Origin: Chitinophagales bacterium
Lineage (GTDB): Bacteria > Bacteroidota > Bacteroidia > Chitinophagales > Chitinophagaceae
Assembly: GCA_030832085.1 (NCBI GenBank)
Contig: JAURJU010000076.1
Coordinates: 1-64,000 of the forward strand
Reading direction: 5' to 3'
Length of the DNA stretch: 64,000 nt
The position numbers and the translations under genes were made by a program. Below the pieces are notes generated by a model. It ran no database searches. It was not told where the DNA came from and worked only from the letters and a program-made list of their open reading frames with translations. Shown in pieces: positions 36,369 to 63,335 of this stretch; within the stretch, counting starts at the first letter, position 1, and each line of letters starts with the position of its first letter.

Positions 36369-36803
36369 ATGGAACTGAGAAACAAATCCGCCACTTTCGA
36401 GTATTTCATCGAAGACAAGTTCGATGCGGGGATGGTTTTGACAGGAACAGAAGTGAAAGCAATACGCGATGGGCGTGTCAGTTTCAGCGACAGTTATTGC
36501 CTGATTGACCATGGTGAATTGTACGTAAAAGGGCTCCATATTTCGCATTATGAGTTTGGTAGTTATGCAAATCATCCCCCAGTTCGCGATAGGAAATTGC
36601 TCTTGAAAAAAAAGGAGATTACACGCATCATCCAAAAAATGAAGGACAAGGGGTTCACCATCATTCCCCTGAAAATCTATTTTAATGAACGCGGTTATGC
36701 CAAGATGCAGATTGGATTGGCAAAAGGCAAAAAATTGCATGACAAGCGCGAGTCTGTAAAGCAACGTGAGTCAGAGCGGGAAATCAAAAGATATTTGGGT
36801 TGA
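36369..36803 (+). CDS. smpB: SsrA-binding protein SmpB
   Basis: Binds tmRNA and delivers it to stalled ribosomes for trans-translation. The 144 residues from the ATG at 36369 begin MELRNKSATFEYFIEDKFDAG; the upstream TTG-started extension is not family-like. GTEVKAIRDGRVSFSDSY, the VPLKIYF-like IIPLKIYFNERGYAKMQI, and the basic tail KRESVKQRESEREIKRYL identify it. I found no ssrA gene in the window. Confidence 0.96.
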   Translation: MELRNKSATFEYFIEDKFDAGMVLTGTEVKAIRDGRVSFSDSYCLIDHGELYVKGLHISHYEFGSYANHPPVRDRKLLLKKKEITRIIQKMKDKGFTIIPLKIYFNERGYAKMQIGLAKGKKLHDKRESVKQRESEREIKRYLG

Positions 36804-36849: not shown

Positions 36850-36881
36850 TTTGGAATTATTGAAGTTTTTCATCAAATTTG
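36850..36881 (+). promoter_or_regulatory. Promoter of the trp operon leader
   Basis: TTTG (36850-36853), a 20-base spacer and CAAATTTG (36874-36881), one mismatch from TTTG-N19-21-TAnnTTTG. The leader-peptide ATG follows five bases later, so the transcript should begin almost at that codon. Confidence 0.6.
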
Positions 36882-36886
36882 TTCAA

Positions 36887-36940
36887 ATGAAAAGAAATTA
36901 TACAATCAATGGTTGGCATGCTGTCTCAGACGAGGGGTAG
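36887..36940 (+). CDS. trpL: Putative trp leader peptide
   Basis: 17 codons encoding MKRNYTINGWHAVSDEG, with one Trp codon (TGG 36914-36916). It lies directly after a promoter and 25 bases before the terminator in front of trpE. The stop codon region (GAGGGGTAG) includes the GGGGT that can pair with the terminator's 5' arm, so a ribosome reaching the stop would mask the antiterminator, whereas one stalled at the Trp codon would leave it free. This is the standard geometry of ribosome-mediated attenuation. Expression is not proven; chance occurrence of a short frame is the alternative. Confidence 0.55.
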   Translation: MKRNYTINGWHAVSDEG

Positions 36941-36973
36941 TCACTTGATGTATATTCATATAACCAAGGCCCC
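36934..36973 (+). promoter_or_regulatory. Candidate antiterminator of the trp leader
   Basis: GGGGT (36934-36938) can pair with GCCCC (36969-36973), CTTG (36944-36947) with CAAG (36965-36968), and TATA (36951-36954) with TATA (36959-36962). The composite hairpin sequesters the 5' arm of the terminator and is mutually exclusive with it. Confidence 0.45.
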
Positions 36974-36996
36974 GATTTTTCGGGGCTTTTATTTTT
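36966..36996 (+). terminator. Terminator/attenuator upstream of trpE
   Basis: AAGGCCCCGA (36966-36975) pairs with TCGGGGCTTT (36980-36989; one G-T pair) around a TTTT loop, followed by a T-rich tract to 36996. It is a strong intrinsic terminator lying 14 bases before the trpE ATG and downstream of its own promoter. It may also terminate smpB transcripts. Confidence 0.9.
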
Positions 36997-37010: not shown

Positions 37011-38474
37011 ATGGAAAAAATGAACAAGGTTGGGTTAAAGACGACATTTCGCAAAATGGCGGCTGATCTCTACACTCCTGTTGGAATTTACCTGCGACTG
37101 CGGGACAAGTTTCGGGATACCATTTTGTTGGAAAGTACCGATCACCATACTTCTGAAAACAGTTTTTCCTTCATTGCCATCAATGCCATTGGTGGGATTG
37201 AAATCACTGCGACCAATCTTGTTGAGTTCAAGTATCCTGGTGACCTGCCAAAGCAGATTTCGTTGGATGAAAATGCAGTTCCTGATCTTGTTTGGAACTA
37301 CATGCAAGGATATGAGGTTGAGGCAGGTGTGAAGGAGCTCAAGTTTGCACAAGGGCTGTATGGATACACCGCATATGACGCCATCCCATTTTTTGAAACC
37401 ATCCGGTTCAAAGACAAGCCCTATGCCGCAGACAAAGCCGGGAAAATGGCACCCGATCATTTGACCGATGCCATACCCATTATGCGCTACAGGTTATATC
37501 AATATGTCATCGCCATAGATCATTTTAAGGATGAGCTGTATCTGTTGGAGAATCATATTGCTGGTGTAGATGGAGACAAGCAGTTGATTGAAAATATCAT
37601 CTGTGGAAGGGATTTGCCCTTGTTCCCTTTTGAATCTTCCGGTGAAGAAAGATCCAATCTGACCGATGAGGAATACATTGATATTGTCAAAAAAGGAATA
37701 TCACATTGTTACCGGGGAGATGTTTTTCAAATCGTTTTGAGCAGGCGCTTTGAACAGTCATTCAAGGGAGATGAATTCAATGTTTACAGGGCCTTGCGCA
37801 TGATCAATCCCTCGCCCTATCTTTTCTTTTTTGATTATGGTGAATACAGGCTGATGGGATCCTCTCCTGAAAGCCAGCTGATCATCGCCAACGGGCAGGC
37901 GGTTGTTCATCCCATTGCTGGAACGTTTAAAAGAACGGGAGACGACGCAACTGACCGAAAAGAGGCCGAACGGCTTTTACAAGATCCCAAGGAAAATGCG
38001 GAACATGTAATGTTGGTTGACCTTGCAAGAAATGACCTCGGCAGGGTTTGCGATCATGTCAAGGTGGCCCATTACAGACAGGTCAAGTATTATTCCCATG
38101 TCATCCATTTGGTCAGTGAGGTGGTGGCGTCAACCAGAAAGGATGCCAATCCATTCTTGTTGATGGCAAAAACATTTCCTGCTGGAACCCTGAGTGGTGC
38201 GCCCAAATTCAGGGCCATGCAATTGATTGATGAATATGAAACGACAAAACGTTCTTTTTATGGTGGGGCCATTGGGTTCACCGGATTTGATGGGTCTTGC
38301 AACCAGGCCATCCTCATCAGGAGTTTCTTGAGTCGCAACAATACACTCTACTATCAGGCGGGTGCTGGCATTGTAGCTTCAAGTGTTCCAGAAAGCGAGT
38401 TGCAGGAAGTGAACAACAAGTTGGGCGCATTGAAGAAAGCAGTGTTGTTCGCCAATGAGATTAACAAAAAATAA
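37011..38474 (+). CDS. trpE: Anthranilate synthase component I
   Basis: Makes anthranilate from chorismate, with ammonia from TrpG. The 487 residues have the N-terminal tryptophan-binding motif LLES (in TILLESTDHH), indicating feedback inhibition, and the chorismate-binding C-terminal domain with SSPESQL, HPIAGTFKR, DLARNDLGRVC, AGTLSGAPKFRAM and AGAGIVASSVPE. It is the first structural gene of a full trp operon (E-G-D-C-F-B-A), with a putative attenuator directly upstream. Confidence 0.96.
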   Translation: MEKMNKVGLKTTFRKMAADLYTPVGIYLRLRDKFRDTILLESTDHHTSENSFSFIAINAIGGIEITATNLVEFKYPGDLPKQISLDENAVPDLVWNYMQGYEVEAGVKELKFAQGLYGYTAYDAIPFFETIRFKDKPYAADKAGKMAPDHLTDAIPIMRYRLYQYVIAIDHFKDELYLLENHIAGVDGDKQLIENIICGRDLPLFPFESSGEERSNLTDEEYIDIVKKGISHCYRGDVFQIVLSRRFEQSFKGDEFNVYRALRMINPSPYLFFFDYGEYRLMGSSPESQLIIANGQAVVHPIAGTFKRTGDDATDRKEAERLLQDPKENAEHVMLVDLARNDLGRVCDHVKVAHYRQVKYYSHVIHLVSEVVASTRKDANPFLLMAKTFPAGTLSGAPKFRAMQLIDEYETTKRSFYGGAIGFTGFDGSCNQAILIRSFLSRNNTLYYQAGAGIVASSVPESELQEVNNKLGALKKAVLFANEINKK

Positions 38475-38489
38475 AATCAATCAAATCCC

Positions 38490-39086
38490 TTGAAACGACT
38501 ACTGGTACTGGACAATTACGATTCATTCACGTACAATCTTGTACAACTGGCCATTGAAATACTGGGTGAGGAAATTGACGTATTCCGCAACGACCAAATA
38601 TCCATTGAAGCAGCAGGCCAGTATGAAAAGATATTGCTTTCACCCGGCCCAGGTATTCCGGAAGAGGCTGGCATTTTACTCCCATTAATAAAGACCTATG
38701 CACCTACCCATTCCCTGTTTGGGGTTTGTCTTGGTCAACAAGCGATTGGTCAGGCGTTTGGCGGACAATTGGTCAACCTCTCCACTGTGTTTCATGGCGT
38801 TGCGACACCTGTTCATCTGTTGCCCGATACCCATCCATCTGCCTTTGGAAATGATTGGTTCAATGGTTTGGAGCCTACACTTGAAGTGGGCAGATACCAC
38901 AGTTGGGTTGTACAACAAGAAAATTTTCCCGAAGTACTTGAGGTTACCTCTATCGATGAAAATGGCATGGTCATGTCGCTGCGCCACAGGAATTTCGACG
39001 TGCAGGGTGTTCAATTCCATCCTGAAAGTGTTTTGACACCCAAAGGAAAAAAAATGCTTGAAAACTGGCTCCTCAGCAGGCCATAA
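38490..39086 (+). CDS. trpG: Anthranilate synthase component II (glutamine amidotransferase)
   Basis: Supplies ammonia to TrpE. 198 residues starting at a TTG codon; the product KRLLVLDNYDSFTYN begins exactly where the family begins and no ATG lies nearby. Class I amidotransferase residues are intact: SPGPGIP, nucleophile Cys80 (FGVCLGQQ), and His177/Glu179 (QFHPES). It is a separate protein, not fused to TrpD as in enterobacteria. It could also serve 4-amino-4-deoxychorismate synthase. Confidence 0.94.
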   Translation: MKRLLVLDNYDSFTYNLVQLAIEILGEEIDVFRNDQISIEAAGQYEKILLSPGPGIPEEAGILLPLIKTYAPTHSLFGVCLGQQAIGQAFGGQLVNLSTVFHGVATPVHLLPDTHPSAFGNDWFNGLEPTLEVGRYHSWVVQQENFPEVLEVTSIDENGMVMSLRHRNFDVQGVQFHPESVLTPKGKKMLENWLLSRP

Positions 39087-39102
39087 CATAAAAAATTCAT
39101 GG

Positions 39103-40098
39103 ATGAAACAGACACTGAATTATCTTTTTGAACACAAGACATTGTCAAGAGACAATGCCAAGTCTATTTTGCTGGACCTGGGCCGGGGCGCATACAATGA
39201 ACACGAGCTGAGTGCATTCATGACCGTTTATCTTATGCGAACCATCACCATCGAGGAACTCATGGGCTTCAGGGATGCATTGCTGGAACTCTGTGTTCCA
39301 GTTGATTTTGAAGACCGAAAACTGATGGATATCGTTGGAACAGGTGGGGACGGAAAGAATACCTTCAACATTTCTACCTTGTCCTGCTTCATTGTAGCCG
39401 GTGCCGGGCAGGCTGTAGCCAAACACGGCAGCTATGGTGCGAGTTCCATCAGCGGGGCATCCAACCTCATGGAATCTCTTGGATACCGGTTCAAGAACGA
39501 CCAAGGTCAGCTGCGCAAAGAACTTGATAAGACCAACATGTGTTTCCTTCATGCCCCGGTATTTCACCCTGCATTGAAGGCGGTGGGACCCATCCGAAAA
39601 AACCTGCGGGTAAGGACTTTCTTTAACATGCTTGGGCCAATGGTAAACCCTTCCAATCCTGCCTTTCAGATGGTAGGGGTTTACAACTTAGAGATTGCGA
39701 GGATTTACAATTACTTGCTTCAGGGTCAACAACGTAATTTTTCAATTGTCCATTCCCTTGATGGTTACGATGAGATTTCACTTACATCGGATGTGAAAGT
39801 AATCACTGAAGATGGTGAAAAAATATTTACACCTGAGCAGCTTGGAGGTATGCAGATTGATGGAAATGAAATCTGGGGAGGTGACACAGTTGAAGATGCT
39901 GCTGCAATTTTCATGCGCATTCTCAAGGGTGAGGGCACGGTGGCGCAAAATGCTGTTGTAACTGCCAATGCTGCCATGGCATTGTTCATGACGCCCGGTT
40001 ATTCTGATTATCCAACCGCATTTGCTGCAGCAAAGGAAAGCCTTGAAAGTGGAAAGGCATTGCAAACCCTGCAGTCACTGATTGCAATACAATCCTGA
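39103..40098 (+). CDS. trpD: Anthranilate phosphoribosyltransferase
   Basis: Transfers phosphoribose from PRPP to anthranilate. 331 residues from the ATG at 39103 (MKQTLNYLFEHKTLS); the reading frame remains open upstream into trpG but without family similarity. The PRPP loop GTGGDGKNTFNIST (residues 79-92), KHGSYGASSISGASN and LGPMVNPSNP are diagnostic. It lies 16 bases after trpG. Confidence 0.95.
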   Translation: MKQTLNYLFEHKTLSRDNAKSILLDLGRGAYNEHELSAFMTVYLMRTITIEELMGFRDALLELCVPVDFEDRKLMDIVGTGGDGKNTFNISTLSCFIVAGAGQAVAKHGSYGASSISGASNLMESLGYRFKNDQGQLRKELDKTNMCFLHAPVFHPALKAVGPIRKNLRVRTFFNMLGPMVNPSNPAFQMVGVYNLEIARIYNYLLQGQQRNFSIVHSLDGYDEISLTSDVKVITEDGEKIFTPEQLGGMQIDGNEIWGGDTVEDAAAIFMRILKGEGTVAQNAVVTANAAMALFMTPGYSDYPTAFAAAKESLESGKALQTLQSLIAIQS

Positions 40099-40103
40099 AC
40101 CCG

Positions 40104-40895
40104 ATGAATATTTTAGATACCATTGTTGCAAGAAAAAAAGTGGAAGTTGCCCAGAGGAAGCAAATGATGGGCCTGTCTGAAATACAAGACATTCCTCAAT
40201 ATTCCCGTCAGCCCATTTCCTTGGTGAAATGCTTGTCTTTGCCTGGTGCATCTGGAATCATAGCCGAATTCAAACGCAAGTCGCCATCCAAAGGCATCAT
40301 CAATGACAGCGTGGATCCTGTAGACGTGGTAAAAGCCTACCAGAATGCAGGAGCGTCGGCCATTTCAATACTCACCGACGAATACTTTTTCGGTGGTGCT
40401 GACCTCGACCTTGAAAGGGCAAGGCCTTTTTTGGATATTCCCATCCTGAGAAAGGATTTCATGGTAGATGAATACCAGGTGCATGAAGCAAAGGCATTGG
40501 GTGCTGACATGATATTGCTGATTGCAGCCTGTCTGAGCCCTGAAGAGGTGGTTCGGTTTTCAACATTGTCCAGGTCCTTGGGGATGGAAGTACTGCTTGA
40601 ACTGCATGACGAGGATGAGCTGTCCCATGTTTGTGAGACGGTTGATCTGGTGGGCATCAACAACCGCAGCCTCAAAACCTTCGATGTGAACATCGAAAGG
40701 AGTTTGAAGATGGCCGCCCAACTTCCCAAAGGAAAGTTGAAAGTGGCTGAAAGTGGTATCGATGACCCTGCACAGGTCAAGTTGTTCCGTGAAAATGGAT
40801 ACAATGCTTTTTTGATTGGAGAAAATTTCATGAAAACAAATGAGCCGGGTGTGGCGTTAAGTTCTTTCATAAAAGAAATACAATTGTTGGGATGA
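40104..40895 (+). CDS. trpC: Indole-3-glycerol-phosphate synthase
   Basis: (beta/alpha)8-barrel enzyme that closes the indole ring. The 263 residues carry the active-site blocks IIAEFKRKSPSKGI (about residues 52-65), SILTDEYFFGG, ILRKDFMVDEYQ, LVGINNRSLKTF and VAESGID. It is monofunctional; in E. coli it is fused to TrpF. The final codons overlap the trpF start by four bases. Confidence 0.96.
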   Translation: MNILDTIVARKKVEVAQRKQMMGLSEIQDIPQYSRQPISLVKCLSLPGASGIIAEFKRKSPSKGIINDSVDPVDVVKAYQNAGASAISILTDEYFFGGADLDLERARPFLDIPILRKDFMVDEYQVHEAKALGADMILLIAACLSPEEVVRFSTLSRSLGMEVLLELHDEDELSHVCETVDLVGINNRSLKTFDVNIERSLKMAAQLPKGKLKVAESGIDDPAQVKLFRENGYNAFLIGENFMKTNEPGVALSSFIKEIQLLG

Positions 40896-41530
40896 GACTA
40901 AAGGTATGTGGCATGACTAGTATTTTACAGCTGAAGGAACTCGAGTCCATCGGTATCGATTTTGCAGGGTTGATATTCTATCCACAGTCACCGAGGTATG
41001 CTACAAAAGCCGGGCTGACTCCCGATTTGGTCAAAAAGGAAAATTTACGCATCAACAGGGTAGGGGTATTTGTGAACGAGGAGGCGGATACCGTTTTGAG
41101 AACGGTGGACAAATGGAAATTGGATATGGTGCAATTGCATGGTGATGAGTCTCCAAGCTATTGTGAACGCATCTCGCAACATATAAATACCATCAAGGCG
41201 TTCAGGGTTGGTGAAAATGAAAATATACCCTATAAAACTTTTTCCTTCAACGATGCTGTTGATTTGTATCTTTTCGATACGATGGGAAAGCAATATGGTG
41301 GAACCGGTGAACAATTCAAGTGGGATTTGCTCAGCCATGCACCCGTCCCCAAGCCCTATTTTCTCAGTGGTGGAATAGGACCAGATGATATTGATCGGTT
41401 GACAGCATTTTCCAACAATGGGCAAAAGCTCTTTGCGGTTGATGTCAACAGCAAATTTGAATCAGCACCGGGAATAAAGGATATGGAAAAAGTGGCCAAT
41501 TTTTTTAACGCTATTAAAATGATTAACTGA
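40892..41530 (+). CDS. trpF: Phosphoribosylanthranilate isomerase
   Basis: Amadori rearrangement of phosphoribosylanthranilate. The 212 residues include LKVCGMTS with the catalytic Cys near the start, DFAGLIFYPQSPRY, VQLHGDESPSYC, FDTMGKQYGGTG and FLSGGIGPDDI. The catalytic Asp is in LYLFDTMG. Start overlaps trpC (ATGA); trpB follows with one base between. Confidence 0.95.
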   Translation: MRLKVCGMTSILQLKELESIGIDFAGLIFYPQSPRYATKAGLTPDLVKKENLRINRVGVFVNEEADTVLRTVDKWKLDMVQLHGDESPSYCERISQHINTIKAFRVGENENIPYKTFSFNDAVDLYLFDTMGKQYGGTGEQFKWDLLSHAPVPKPYFLSGGIGPDDIDRLTAFSNNGQKLFAVDVNSKFESAPGIKDMEKVANFFNAIKMIN

Positions 41531-41531
41531 C

Positions 41532-42725
41532 ATGATAACAAGTTTTTCAAAACCAACAGAGCAAGGATATTATGGCGATTTTGGTGGGGCATACATACCC
41601 GAAATGTTGTTTCAAAATGTAGAGCATCTTCGTGAAAATTATCTATCCATTTCCAACGATCCTCTTTTTCAACTTGAGTTCAATGCATTGTTGAAAGATT
41701 ATGTCGGAAGACCTACGCCACTTTTTTTGGCAGAAAGGTTGAGTGATCAATTTGGCTCCACCATCTACCTCAAACGGGAAGACCTTTGTCATACCGGTGC
41801 ACACAAGATCAACAACACCATCGGTCAGATTCTTCTTGCCCAACGCCTCGGCAAAAAGCGAATCATTGCAGAGACAGGTGCAGGTCAGCATGGGGTTGCC
41901 ACCGCCACCGTATGTGCCTTGAAAGGAATTGAATGCATTGTATATATGGGCGAAAAAGACATCCAGCGCCAGGCGCCCAATGTAGCAAGGATGAAAATGC
42001 TGGGGGCAAAAGTGATTCCGGCCACCAGTGGTAGCAAGACCCTCAAGGATGCCACCAACGAAGCCATCCGCGATTGGATCAACAATCCAACAGACACCCA
42101 CTATATCATCGGATCGGTTGTTGGTCCTCATCCATATCCCGACATGGTGTCCAGGTTTCAAGCTGTGATCAGCAAGGAAATGCGTGCTCAACTGTTGGAG
42201 AAAACAGGATCTGAGTTGCCAAAACGCGTCATAGCCTGTGTCGGTGGTGGAAGCAATGCTGCAGGTGCCTTTTATCATTTTTTGGACGAACCCAAGGTTG
42301 ATATTGTTGCAGTGGAAGCTGCAGGACATGGCGTGAACACGGGAATGAGTGCAGCCACTACACAGCTGGGTGTTCCAGGAATCCTGCATGGCAGCAAAAG
42401 CATCGTGATGCAAACAGCCGATGGCCAGGTTGTAGAACCACACAGCATTTCAGCAGGGTTGGATTATCCAGGTATCGGTCCCATGCATGCAAATCTTTAT
42501 GCCAGCGGTCGCGCCATTTTCATGAGTGCAACAGATGAGGAAGCCCTGAAATGGGCCTTTGAAATTTCGCGCGTGGAAGGCATTATACCTGCCCTGGAAA
42601 CTGCCCATGCCTTTGCAGTCTTGAGCAAATTGGGGATGAAAAAAGATGAGGTTTCAGTGATTTGCCTCAGTGGCCGTGGGGACAAAGATTTGGGCACCTA
42701 CATGAACGCAATGAACGAACAATAA
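41532..42725 (+). CDS. trpB: Tryptophan synthase beta chain
   Basis: PLP enzyme condensing indole with serine. The 397 residues contain the Schiff-base Lys92 in CHTGAHKINN, AETGAGQHGVATAT, the phosphate-binding CVGGGSNAAGAF, and SAGLDYPGIGPMHA. This is the regular TrpB1 type with a partner trpA directly after, so indole would be channelled. Confidence 0.97.
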   Translation: MITSFSKPTEQGYYGDFGGAYIPEMLFQNVEHLRENYLSISNDPLFQLEFNALLKDYVGRPTPLFLAERLSDQFGSTIYLKREDLCHTGAHKINNTIGQILLAQRLGKKRIIAETGAGQHGVATATVCALKGIECIVYMGEKDIQRQAPNVARMKMLGAKVIPATSGSKTLKDATNEAIRDWINNPTDTHYIIGSVVGPHPYPDMVSRFQAVISKEMRAQLLEKTGSELPKRVIACVGGGSNAAGAFYHFLDEPKVDIVAVEAAGHGVNTGMSAATTQLGVPGILHGSKSIVMQTADGQVVEPHSISAGLDYPGIGPMHANLYASGRAIFMSATDEEALKWAFEISRVEGIIPALETAHAFAVLSKLGMKKDEVSVICLSGRGDKDLGTYMNAMNEQ

Positions 42726-42736
42726 AAGGGAAGGAC

Positions 42737-43507
42737 ATGAGCAGAATAAAAGAGTTGTTTGCAATGAAATCAAAGGGTGTGTTGAACGTGTATTTTACAG
42801 CAGGTTATCCAACCCTCACCAGTACGTTGGAAATCATGCAGTCTTTGCAACATGCAGGGGTTGATTTGATTGAATTGGGAATGCCCTACAGTGATCCCTT
42901 GGCTGATGGGCCTGTAATCCAGGAAAGCAGTCTTGCAGCCCTTGAGAATGGGATGACCATTGCCAAACTTTTTGAGCAATTGAAAGGGTTCAGAGAGAAG
43001 ATCCATGTTCCCGTGGTATTGATGGGGTACATGAACCCTGTTTTGCAGTATGGCTTTGAAAAGTTTTGCTCTGATGCAGCTGCGGCGGGCATAGATGGCC
43101 TCATCCTTCCAGACCTTCCTGCGCTTGAATTTGAGCAATCATATGGCCAGGTTGTAAGGCATCATGGTTTGGATTTTGTGTTCCTGGTTACACCGGAAAC
43201 CAGCGAGGAAAGGGTGAGGAAACTCGACGCACTCAGCACTGGTTTTCTGTATGCCGTTTCGTCTTCGTCCACAACTGGAAAGGAAAAGAATTTTGATCAT
43301 GTCATTGCCTATCTCAAAAGGTTGCAATCTTATGGACTCTCCAATCCTGTATTGGTGGGCTTTGGCATCAAGGACAAGGAAACATTTGAAACTGTTGCGC
43401 CATATGCCAATGGTGCCATCATTGGTTCCGCTTTTATAAAGGCCCTGACACCGGAAAAGAGTCCTGCAGCTTCAACAACATCTTTCATCAATGCCGTACT
43501 CAATTGA
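42737..43507 (+). CDS. trpA: Tryptophan synthase alpha chain
   Basis: Cleaves indole-3-glycerol phosphate to indole and glyceraldehyde 3-phosphate. 256 residues from the ATG at 42737, preceded by a purine-rich AAGGGAAGG; the longer in-frame start overlaps trpB. Catalytic Glu46 (LIELGMPYSD) and Asp57 (PLADGP) have the same 11-residue spacing as the Salmonella enzyme's Glu49/Asp60. Its TGA overlaps the first hisH ATG (TGATG). Confidence 0.96.
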   Translation: MSRIKELFAMKSKGVLNVYFTAGYPTLTSTLEIMQSLQHAGVDLIELGMPYSDPLADGPVIQESSLAALENGMTIAKLFEQLKGFREKIHVPVVLMGYMNPVLQYGFEKFCSDAAAAGIDGLILPDLPALEFEQSYGQVVRHHGLDFVFLVTPETSEERVRKLDALSTGFLYAVSSSSTTGKEKNFDHVIAYLKRLQSYGLSNPVLVGFGIKDKETFETVAPYANGAIIGSAFIKALTPEKSPAASTTSFINAVLN

Positions 43508-44106
43508 TGTCCATGAAAACTGTGGTGATCAAATACAATGCTGGAAATGTGCGGTCGGTTCAATTCGCTTTGGAGCGATTGGGTGTTGAGCCCTTGCTGA
43601 CAGACGATCCTGTGGAAATATTGTCTGCTGACAGGATCATTTTTCCCGGGGTTGGCGAAGCCAGTTCTGCAATGGCTTACCTCAAACAGCGTGGTTTGGA
43701 CAAGACCATTTTGGAAGCAAAACAACCTTTTCTGGGCATTTGCCTGGGCATGCAACTCATGTGCGCGCATTCCGAAGAAAATGACACTTCTTGTTTAGGC
43801 GTTTTTCAGGAAAAGGTAAAGCGATTTGTAGCAGACGGATCTGTACAAAAAATTCCACAGATCGGATGGAATACCATCCACGGGTTGAAGTCCAACCTGT
43901 TCAAGGATGTTCCCGAAAATAGTCACTGTTATTTTGTACACAGCTATTGTGCTCAGCTGGGTCAACATACCATCGCTACTGCAGATTATTGTGGGCTGTT
44001 CAGTGCTGCCTTGCAAACAAAAAATTATTACGGCGTTCAATTTCACCCTGAAAAAAGTGCAAGATTGGGGGCAACCATCATTGAAAACTTTTTAAACATC
44101 GTCTGA
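43507..44106 (+). CDS. hisH: Imidazole glycerol phosphate synthase subunit HisH
   Basis: Glutaminase that feeds ammonia to HisF. About 199 residues from the ATG at 43507, or 197 from 43513. Class I amidotransferase features: KYNAGNVRSVQFALERLG, FPGVGEA, nucleophile Cys in FLGICLGMQLMC, and FHPEKSARLG near the end. The start overlaps the trpA stop, coupling histidine genes to the trp operon, which is unusual. Confidence 0.95.
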   Translation: MSMKTVVIKYNAGNVRSVQFALERLGVEPLLTDDPVEILSADRIIFPGVGEASSAMAYLKQRGLDKTILEAKQPFLGICLGMQLMCAHSEENDTSCLGVFQEKVKRFVADGSVQKIPQIGWNTIHGLKSNLFKDVPENSHCYFVHSYCAQLGQHTIATADYCGLFSAALQTKNYYGVQFHPEKSARLGATIIENFLNIV

Positions 44107-44109
44107 CGG

Positions 44110-44841
44110 ATGCAAATTATCCCTGCCATAGATATCATTGATGGTAAATGCGTTCGGCTTACGGAGGGCGATTACCTGCAGAAAACTGAATATTCAGCAT
44201 CCCCCCTGGAGATGGCGAAAATATATGAGGACAATGGCATCAGCCGACTCCATTTGGTGGATCTGGATGGTGCAAGGTCGGGAAAGGTAATCAATTGGAA
44301 AGTTGCAGAACAAATTTCAAGCCATACCAACCTTGTTGTCGACTTTGGTGGTGGGGTGAAGACCCGCAAGGAAGTTGAGCGTATCATCGATATGGGAATT
44401 GCTTATGTAACAGTGGGCAGCGTTGCAGCAAAACAACCAGATATCTTCAAGGAATGGATCGATAATTTTGGACCATCCCGCTTTATGTTGGGTGCCGACG
44501 TAAAGGATGAAATGATCATGGTAAACGGCTGGTTTGAAGCATCATCCATCAGATTGCTGCCCTTCATCGCATCTTACATGGAGATGGGCATCAGGAATGT
44601 TTTTTGTACAGACATCAGCAAAGACGGACGCTTGGAAGGGCCATCCACTGCTTTGTACACCAAGATCAAACTGCAGTTCCCAGATCTTTTTCTCATTGCC
44701 AGTGGCGGCGTTGCCAAGATGGATGACCTGTTCGACCTCTCAGCCGCAGGATGCGATGCTGCCATTGTTGGAAAAGCCATTTACGAGAATAGGATATCAA
44801 TTGAAGCATTGAAAACATTTATACAATCAACACCACATTGA
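44110..44841 (+). CDS. hisA: ProFAR isomerase HisA
   Basis: Phosphoribosylformimino-AICAR ribotide isomerase, a (beta/alpha)8 barrel. The 243 residues show the half-barrel symmetry with catalytic Asp8 (PAIDIIDGKCVRL) and the second Asp in LGADVKDEMI, plus VDFGGGVKTR and ASGGVAKMDDL for phosphate binding. Three bases after hisH and contiguous with hisF. Confidence 0.95.
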   Translation: MQIIPAIDIIDGKCVRLTEGDYLQKTEYSASPLEMAKIYEDNGISRLHLVDLDGARSGKVINWKVAEQISSHTNLVVDFGGGVKTRKEVERIIDMGIAYVTVGSVAAKQPDIFKEWIDNFGPSRFMLGADVKDEMIMVNGWFEASSIRLLPFIASYMEMGIRNVFCTDISKDGRLEGPSTALYTKIKLQFPDLFLIASGGVAKMDDLFDLSAAGCDAAIVGKAIYENRISIEALKTFIQSTPH

Positions 44842-45594
44842 ATGCTCACCAAGCGCATCATACCCTGTCTCGACATCAAAGATGGCCGTACTGTAAAAGG
44901 CACAAATTTCGTTGACCTGCGCGATGCAGGAGACCCCGTTGAGTTGGCTGCGCTATATGCAGAAAAAGGAGCAGATGAACTGGTGTTTCTCGACATCACG
45001 GCAACGAACGAAAAGAGAAAGACTTTGGCTGCTCTTGTAGACAGGATTGCACACAGAATCAATATTCCATTCACTGTGGGAGGTGGCATTTCCTCAGTTG
45101 AGGATGTCAGGGTGCTATTGGACAGTGGGGCAGACAAGATCTCAGTCAATACTTCTGCGTTCAAAGATCCCGAATTGATCAACCGGCTTTCAGCTGAGTT
45201 TGGAAGCCAATGCATTGTGCTGGCCATTGATGCCAAAAAAGGGGAGGACGGGGAATGGTATGTTTACTTGAATGGTGGGCGGTTGGCAACAGAAAAAAAA
45301 TGCCTGGATTGGGCGATAGAAGCAGTGCAAAGGGGTGCAGGTGAAATCCTGTTGACATCGATGGACCATGATGGAACAAAGGCCGGATTTGCCAAGGAGA
45401 TCACAGGTCTGGTTTCCCGATCAGTGAACGTGCCTGTTATTGCATCCGGCGGAGGTGGGACCCCCATCCACTTTTACGATATTTTGGACAGACATGCGGA
45501 TGCAGCCCTTGCTGCCAGCATTTTTCACTTCGGTGAAATATCCATTCCCGAACTCAAGGCATTCCTTAAACAAAAGGGAATTCCGGTCAGATGA
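44842..45594 (+). CDS. hisF: Imidazole glycerol phosphate synthase subunit HisF
   Basis: Cyclase that makes imidazole glycerol phosphate and AICAR with HisH. The 250 residues have catalytic Asp11 ([15 protein letters not shown]) and Asp130 (VLAIDAKK), with TVGGGISS and ASGGGGTP as phosphate loops. Starts on the base after the hisA stop codon. Confidence 0.96.
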
Positions 45595-45607
45595 CCGGTA
45601 TATTGAT

Positions 45608-45615
45608 TAATTTTG
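45608..45615 (+). promoter_or_regulatory. -7 box inside the his segment, before hisIE
   Basis: TAATTTTG, exact match, seven bases before the hisIE ATG. Suggests an internal promoter for hisIE and the following thioredoxin-like gene. Confidence 0.45.
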
Positions 45616-45622
45616 CAATGAA

Positions 45623-46225
45623 ATGGAGTTGAACATGGATTTTAAGAAATTTTCTGATGGACTCATGCCTGCCATCATACAGGACCTGAATACCGGGAAA
45701 GTATTGATGCTGGGGTACATGAACCTTGACGCCTTCAATGAAACCATGACAACCGGAAAAATTACATTTTTCAGCCGCTCCAAAAACCGTCTTTGGACCA
45801 AGGGTGAAGAAAGCGGAAACTTTCTTTACCTGAAATCTTACGCCCTGGATTGTGACCAGGACGCATTGCTTTTCAAGGTATCACCTGTTGGTCCTGTCTG
45901 CCATACCGGCGCAGACACCTGCTGGAATGAGGTAAATGCCTCTGATGATTTCCTTCAGCACCTGGAATCCATCATCGACCTCCGAAAAAGCAGTGACGAT
46001 GAGAATTCTTACGTACGGTCACTCTTCAAAAAGGGAATCAATAAAATTGCACAGAAAGTGGGAGAGGAAGCAGTTGAAGTCATTATCGAAGCAAAGGACA
46101 ACGACGATGACAAGTTTCTCAATGAATCAGCAGACCTGCTTTTTCACTATTTGCTTTTGCTTAACAGCAAAGGCTTTAATTTAGACAATATAAAAGACAT
46201 TCTCAAGCAACGCCATCAACAATGA
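45623..46225 (+). CDS. hisIE: Bifunctional phosphoribosyl-AMP cyclohydrolase/phosphoribosyl-ATP pyrophosphatase
   Basis: Second and third steps of histidine synthesis in one 200-residue chain. The HisI domain (residues 1-105) has the metal-binding FFSRSKNRLWTKGEESGN and CHTGADTCW. The HisE domain (residues 115-200) has the helical SYVRSLFKKGINKIAQK and GEEAVEVIIEAKD. In E. coli the order of domains is the same. hisG, hisD, hisC and hisB are not in the window. The stop overlaps the next ATG (ATGA). Confidence 0.95.
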   Translation: MELNMDFKKFSDGLMPAIIQDLNTGKVLMLGYMNLDAFNETMTTGKITFFSRSKNRLWTKGEESGNFLYLKSYALDCDQDALLFKVSPVGPVCHTGADTCWNEVNASDDFLQHLESIIDLRKSSDDENSYVRSLFKKGINKIAQKVGEEAVEVIIEAKDNDDDKFLNESADLLFHYLLLLNSKGFNLDNIKDILKQRHQQ

Positions 46226-63222: not shown

Positions 63223-63230
63223 TATATTTG
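63223..63230 (+). promoter_or_regulatory. -7 box of ffs
   Basis: TATATTTG, exact match, four to five bases before the first paired base of the SRP RNA, consistent with transcription starting at the RNA's mature 5' end. Confidence 0.65.
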
Positions 63231-63233
63231 CAC

Positions 63234-63335
63234 CGGCAGGTCTTACACGACCAGCTCCTGCTGACTCCCCCAGGACCGGAAGGTAGCAAGGGTAGGTGGT
63301 TGAGCGGTGCGATGTAATCAACCTGCCATTTTTTT
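63234..63335 (+). ncRNA. ffs: Signal recognition particle RNA, small bacterial type (4.5S)
   Basis: About 95-100 nt hairpin RNA that with Ffh targets nascent membrane proteins. GGCAGGT (63235-63241) pairs with ACCTGCC (63321-63327) to close the stem. The conserved apical domain is present: CAGGACCGGAAGGTAGCAAG (63271-63290), with the GGAA tetraloop and the asymmetric internal loop that binds Ffh. A T-run (63330-63336) terminates it. The exact 3' end is approximate. Confidence 0.93.

Follow-up and report, generated by a model that had tools for sequence, protein, structure and literature searches.

In trp attenuators of the E. coli type, represented in Rfam by the Trp_leader family (RF00513), a leader peptide with Trp codons is combined with the mutually exclusive hairpins 1:2, 2:3 and 3:4. 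Classical attenuators of this kind have been found by comparison in Corynebacterium and Streptomyces, where the leaders carry double or triple UGG codons (PMC1262725). In Sinorhizobium meliloti, the leader ATG forms the very beginning of the trpL transcript, which contains several consecutive Trp codons and controls only trpE(G) (PMC7298713). Within the Bacteroidota, the Bacteroid-trp RNA (Rfam RF01692; Weinberg 2010, PMC2864571) lies upstream of the trp operon of F. psychrophilum (PMC6414381), and clues to leader peptides have been reported upstream of amino acid operons in this species (PMC9723704). Among the matches listed in a search of titles and abstract beginnings of open-licence papers, none described a Trp-plus-His attenuator, a trp-his superoperon, a leader with a single Trp codon or leaders of the Chitinophagaceae.

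The locus described here lies on the forward strand of a 64,000-nucleotide stretch of Chitinophagaceae DNA, in the following referred to as the window, between the end of smpB (36803) and trpE (37011–38474). It begins with a promoter-like element, consisting of TTTG (36850–36853), a spacer of 20 nucleotides and a −7-like box, CAAATTTG (36874–36881). After five further bases, TTCAA, follows the ATG (36887–36889) of a leader frame, MKRNYTINGWHAVSDEG (codons 36887–36937, stop TAG 36938–36940), which contains a single Trp codon, TGG (36914–36916), directly followed by a His codon, CAT (36917–36919). The four G of segment 2 (36934–36937) immediately precede the stop codon, so that the antiterminator 5′ arm GGGGT (36934–36938) reaches its first base. 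Its partner, GCCCC (segment 3, 36969–36973), also belongs to an intrinsic terminator of 10 pairs (stem 36966–36989), whose T-rich tail extends to 36996, only 14 bases upstream of trpE. On reading the sequence again, we found the promoter boxes, the 17-codon frame, the Trp codon, the GGGGT/GCCCC arms and the terminator exactly where a preliminary description of this DNA had placed them; its account of the leader was accurate as far as it went, and overlooked both the His codon after the Trp codon and the distal his genes. In the window, trpE is followed by trpG, trpD, trpC, trpF, trpB and trpA (38490–43507) and then, without a break, by hisH, hisA, hisF and hisIE (43513–46225).

Taken alone, the window sequence provides modest evidence for regulation. 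Of 200 dinucleotide shuffles, 195 fold less well than its 131-nucleotide leader (z −2.45), but the stretch before the 3′ arm of the terminator is not unusually stable: up to 36978, it is matched by 106 of 200 shuffles (z 0.16). The argument is therefore carried by its relatives. In the same genus, a TrpE match was obtained in 35 of 41 genomes, and all 35 upstream regions contain a leader with one (24), two (3) or three (8) Trp codons, along with a G-run and a terminator-like hairpin. A covariance model built from 11 multi-Trp leaders of the genus (R1) matches 159 of 194 genomes of the family at E 0.01 or better, many of them weakly. From these matches, we fetched 106 places, down to about E 2.5e-5 and a few beyond, and added two from R2, whose second and third matches in the window's genome we rejected as ordinary terminators after genes. 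The leader is present in 106 of the 108 places, the exceptions being L188, which has none, and L185, which has an unlikely frame only. The short frame of the preliminary description is thus conserved in genus and family alike, and this conservation puts the arrangement beyond chance. Of 135 tabulated leaders, 122 have a TrpE start downstream, and the remaining 13 loci, about 500 nucleotides long, are too short for the TrpE search used. The usual leader of the family reads WWWH (91 of 107 frames, picked by script). In a quick tree of 95 TrpE proteins, with SH-aLRT as its only support measure, 21 of the 22 single-Trp rows, including the window, form a single clade (SH-aLRT 99), from which only G359, with the leader WRQH, stands apart.

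Leaders with WW or WWW are also common upstream of trpE among 80 named relatives from the Bacteroidota, by script-picked and partly checked frames, with arms that are specific to each lineage. Six relatives (L184, L216, L220, L221, L224 and L228) have lost the G-run; by eye, other arms seem to serve instead, such as TGTGTCG with CGACACA or GCTGTGT with ACACAGC. The survey of the named relatives bears on a further alternative, namely that the hairpin is a plain terminator of smpB, the frame a product of chance, and trpE expressed from a promoter of its own. The end of smpB at 36803 and the position of the terminator upstream of trpE fit such a reading, yet smpB precedes trpE only in L189 and L190 of the 80 named loci while the leaders recur, and the T-rich tail ends a mere 14 bases before trpE; we consider this alternative highly improbable.

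Predicted structures point in the same direction. In folds of 33 distinct leaders of the genus, hairpin 2:3 (GGGG:CCCC) and the terminator 3:4 are found throughout, together with a hairpin 1:2 of varying strength on the Trp and His codons; in the window, folding places it at 36914–36943 (outer pairs UGGC/GUCA, inner pairs UCUC/GAGG). As MAFFT misplaced the G-run between groups when all leaders of the genus were aligned, leaving the terminator as the only RNAalifold consensus, we split the alignment into groups. When pairs of hairpin 1:2 and the terminator are counted in the multi-Trp group, none of 500 shuffles reaches the observed value in any of five measures, and seven pairs are changed on both sides. 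The single-Trp group is weaker: 2 of 500 shuffles reach its score, and 75 of 500 reach its count of doubly changed pairs. Inside the genus, the GGGG:CCCC pairing is almost invariant and shows no covariation. Across the family, matched 2:3 arms form better duplexes (mean −14.39) than arms permuted between species (−13.59, sd 0.17), and none of 5000 permutations of 122 distinct leaders is as good; when each genus contributes a single row, between 0 and 17 of 1000 permutations are, over 20 draws. Five of the 135 leaders are absent from this comparison, since the script detected no terminator in them. By this sequence test, the two arms coevolve across the family. The pairing proposed in the preliminary description is thereby supported, and compensatory changes, which it had named as a form of support, are seen as GAGGC with GCCTC in L153 and L158. 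It had further recognized the logic of E. coli-type attenuation, which is supported, but had missed hairpin 1:2; together with 2:3 and 3:4, this hairpin completes the set known from E. coli. As judged from sequence and folding, antiterminator and terminator are mutually exclusive, with the T-rich tail on the terminator, and the last Trp codon precedes the G-run by 16–20 nucleotides in 126 of 130 leaders.

A TTTG or TTCG ends 3–9 nucleotides upstream of the leader start in 127 of 135 leaders (7 nucleotides in 68). Of 5228 control ATGs from these loci, 440 (8%) have such a box at this distance. Words resembling a Shine-Dalgarno sequence precede the leader start in just two of 135. Translation of the leader is putatively near-leaderless, comparable to S. 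meliloti trpL, which is from another phylum. Within the phylum, leaderless mRNAs are rare, accounting for 5.5% in F. psychrophilum (PMC9723704), and 5′ UTRs shorter than 10 nucleotides account for about 3.7% in B. thetaiotaomicron (PMC7366714).

From these parts, their conservation and the coevolution of their arms, we infer the transcription start, the ribosome positions, the pairing in the cell and the response to Trp. Transcription would begin at the leader ATG or a few bases upstream of it. Under Trp shortage, a ribosome whose A site is stalled on the Trp codon would cover segment 1 and leave the G-run, 20 nucleotides downstream, free to pair as GGGGT with GCCCC, so that the polymerase would read through. 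A ribosome at the leader stop codon would instead cover the G-run and allow the terminator to form; without a ribosome, hairpin 1:2 would sequester the G-run, with the same outcome. These positions follow from general ribosome footprint lengths. A single Trp codon counts against such a device, since theory predicts that high sensitivity with just one regulatory codon requires very low read-through (PMC1183508). Nevertheless, we regard it as very probable that the leader is a ribosome-mediated transcription attenuator of the trpEGDCFBA-hisHAF-hisIE operon, a judgement that leaves the role of His aside. In place of charged tRNA, free Trp could be sensed by a nascent arrest peptide, in the manner of TnaC. 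Such a peptide is compatible with the conservation of Asn ahead of the Trp run and of His behind it, but the number of Trp codons, the residue that follows them and the C-terminal residues all vary, the frame ends directly after a Ser codon in several leaders (L013, L015 and L019), and pairing accounts for much of the conservation. We rejected arrest on this variability of the peptide, and the smpB terminator on the recurrence of leaders without smpB; the chance of a TnaC-like mode is very slim. The Asn, at position −3 of the Trp run, is shared by 74 of the 80 leaders with a linked hisH and by 17 of the 24 without (linkage as defined below); the window has Ile at −3 and Asn at −2.

While the general kind of attenuator is known, the variant found here appears uncatalogued. 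It resembles the E. coli type in its Trp-codon leader peptide and its alternative hairpins, and differs in having one Trp codon, no ribosome-binding site and a putatively near-leaderless start; RF00513 scores 18 bits in the window against a cut-off of 41. At gathering scores, Rfam yields no leader match at 20 loci (three from the genus, including the window, and 17 from the wider family), and we rejected a riboswitch at the window leader on these grounds. Elsewhere in the window, Rfam places a Bacteroidales small SRP RNA (RF04183) at 63227–63332. RF01692 gives no match above its cut-off in 41 genomes of the genus (five have sub-threshold matches, E up to 1), nor in the seven genomes of the family, including the window's, within a 148-genome sample of the phylum, of which it matches 11, all from one other family. 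The matches that we inspected resemble our leaders in that a WWW frame is followed by a terminator, within which, by eye, an arm at the leader's stop can pair; they differ in having their own sequences and arms, CGTCGTGA with TCACGAC.

The position of hisH downstream of trpA raises the question of the His codon, which lies 17 nucleotides upstream of the G-run. In a less certain extension of the scheme, it may serve as another control codon, through which His shortage, too, would open the operon for its distal his genes. We examined where hisH lies with respect to the leader in 135 genomes and scored it as linked if the best HisH match, and only this one, lies on the same contig and strand within less than 16 kb downstream. 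By this definition, 80 are linked (G289, at 14.2 kb, doubtfully so), 24 unlinked and three probably unlinked, and 28 received no call because their contigs end; omitted were L049 (same genome as L026), L185, L188 and, from the genus, G022, G027, G036, G038 and G026. His directly follows the Trp run in 79 of 80 linked genomes, the sole exception being G359, compared with 17 of 24 unlinked ones, or 18 of 27 with the probable cases (Fisher's p 1.1e-4 and 1.1e-5, respectively). Counted by genus, any non-His residue is seen in 1 of 36 genera with a linked hisH and in 4 of 15 without (p 0.02), or in 6 of 16 once the probable cases are added (p 0.002). Among the named loci, Arachidicoccus L223 is a counterexample, with WWWQ, and thus Gln, despite a linked hisH. 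Since the His idea arose from named loci that share assemblies with the test set, the test is not fully independent.

The competing view holds that the attenuator responds to Trp only, and that the His codon is kept by the pairing of hairpin 1:2 alone, or by ancestry. In its favour, hairpin 1:2 of the multi-Trp leaders includes the CA of CAY in its 5′ arm, and those 17 of 24 unlinked genomes retain the codon. Asn at −3 (p 0.01) and Ser at +4 (p 0.02) likewise lean with hisH linkage, a sign of shared ancestry that speaks against the His step, and there are 12 independent pairs on all branches but three on supported ones, too few for the independent-pairs test to reach significance or to back the link to hisH. 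On the other hand, the third base of the linked codons is T (72) or C (7), never A or G, though C, too, presumably fails to form the U-A pair, while CAN codons in unlinked genomes include CAA (2) and CAG (3). Furthermore, neighbouring positions such as Thr at +2 (56/80 linked, 17/24 unlinked; p 1) and Asn at +3 (p 0.08) show no comparable association, and codon simulation on the TrpE tree, with 51 linked and 24 unlinked rows, yields P values of 0.003–0.008, or of 0–0.0015 with the probable cases. We rate the Trp-only view at a little under an even chance. A two-input attenuator responding to Trp or His is suggestive, and for us the odds that it exists are level.

Leaders with fewer than three Trp codons are hisH-linked in 20 cases, without a call in nine and unlinked in none; for the single-Trp clade of the window, the respective numbers are 13, eight and none. 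On the two-input reading, this clade may have pared its leader down to one Trp and one His codon, a proposal that could go either way. Interleaved Trp/His leaders (WHWHH) are found upstream of trpE in Carboxylicivirga and Marinilabiliaceae records (L241 and L244), in the former (L241) with a hisH start about 2.3 kb beyond that of trpA. The WHWHH pattern itself occurs in 53 of 392 genomes, and at none of 30 fetched loci did we see a nearby trp or his gene of the window type, or a leader-like frame.

The remaining his genes of the window's genome, hisG, hisD, hisC and hisB, lie about 135 kb away on the same contig. Upstream of hisGDCB, and outside the window, we noted a frame read as MLANGHIHHHHNLP (L339 1220–1325, about G000:C48:172235–172340), which is His-rich, near-leaderless, starts four nucleotides after TTTG and is followed by a terminator hairpin; it looks like a His attenuator, with a fold that is not exceptional (z −1.40). 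An upstream frame with at least three His codons is found at 26 of 30 scanned hisG loci, and among the four misses, L360 has almost no upstream DNA. In 14 of 33 hisH-linked genomes tested, hisG precedes the trp leader on its strand by less than 12 kb, and by these positions of hisG and hisH, trp lies between his genes. Of the 27 genomes scored as unlinked or probably so, 25 could be compared, and in 20 of these, hisG is found within 7 kb of hisH on one strand (G323 and G267 have no match, and the HisG match of G351 holds many stops). Where trp lies inside his genes, a switch that responds only to Trp would cut off the distal his genes when Trp is plentiful.

With these results, trp attenuation comes to include a large family in whose sampled genomes the Rfam model tested finds no member, and the leader of the window provides a natural example of an attenuator with a single Trp codon, a case treated by theory (PMC1183508). 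They also reveal an operon whose trp genes continue into hisHAF-hisIE, with hisGDCB far away and preceded by a separate His-rich leader. Sensing of both Trp and His is a new idea and suggestive. If it is true, a single His codon behind the Trp codons solves the shut-off of the distal his genes; and should the His codon matter, the locus would illustrate the adaptation of a switch to an operon that has come to lie within that of another pathway.
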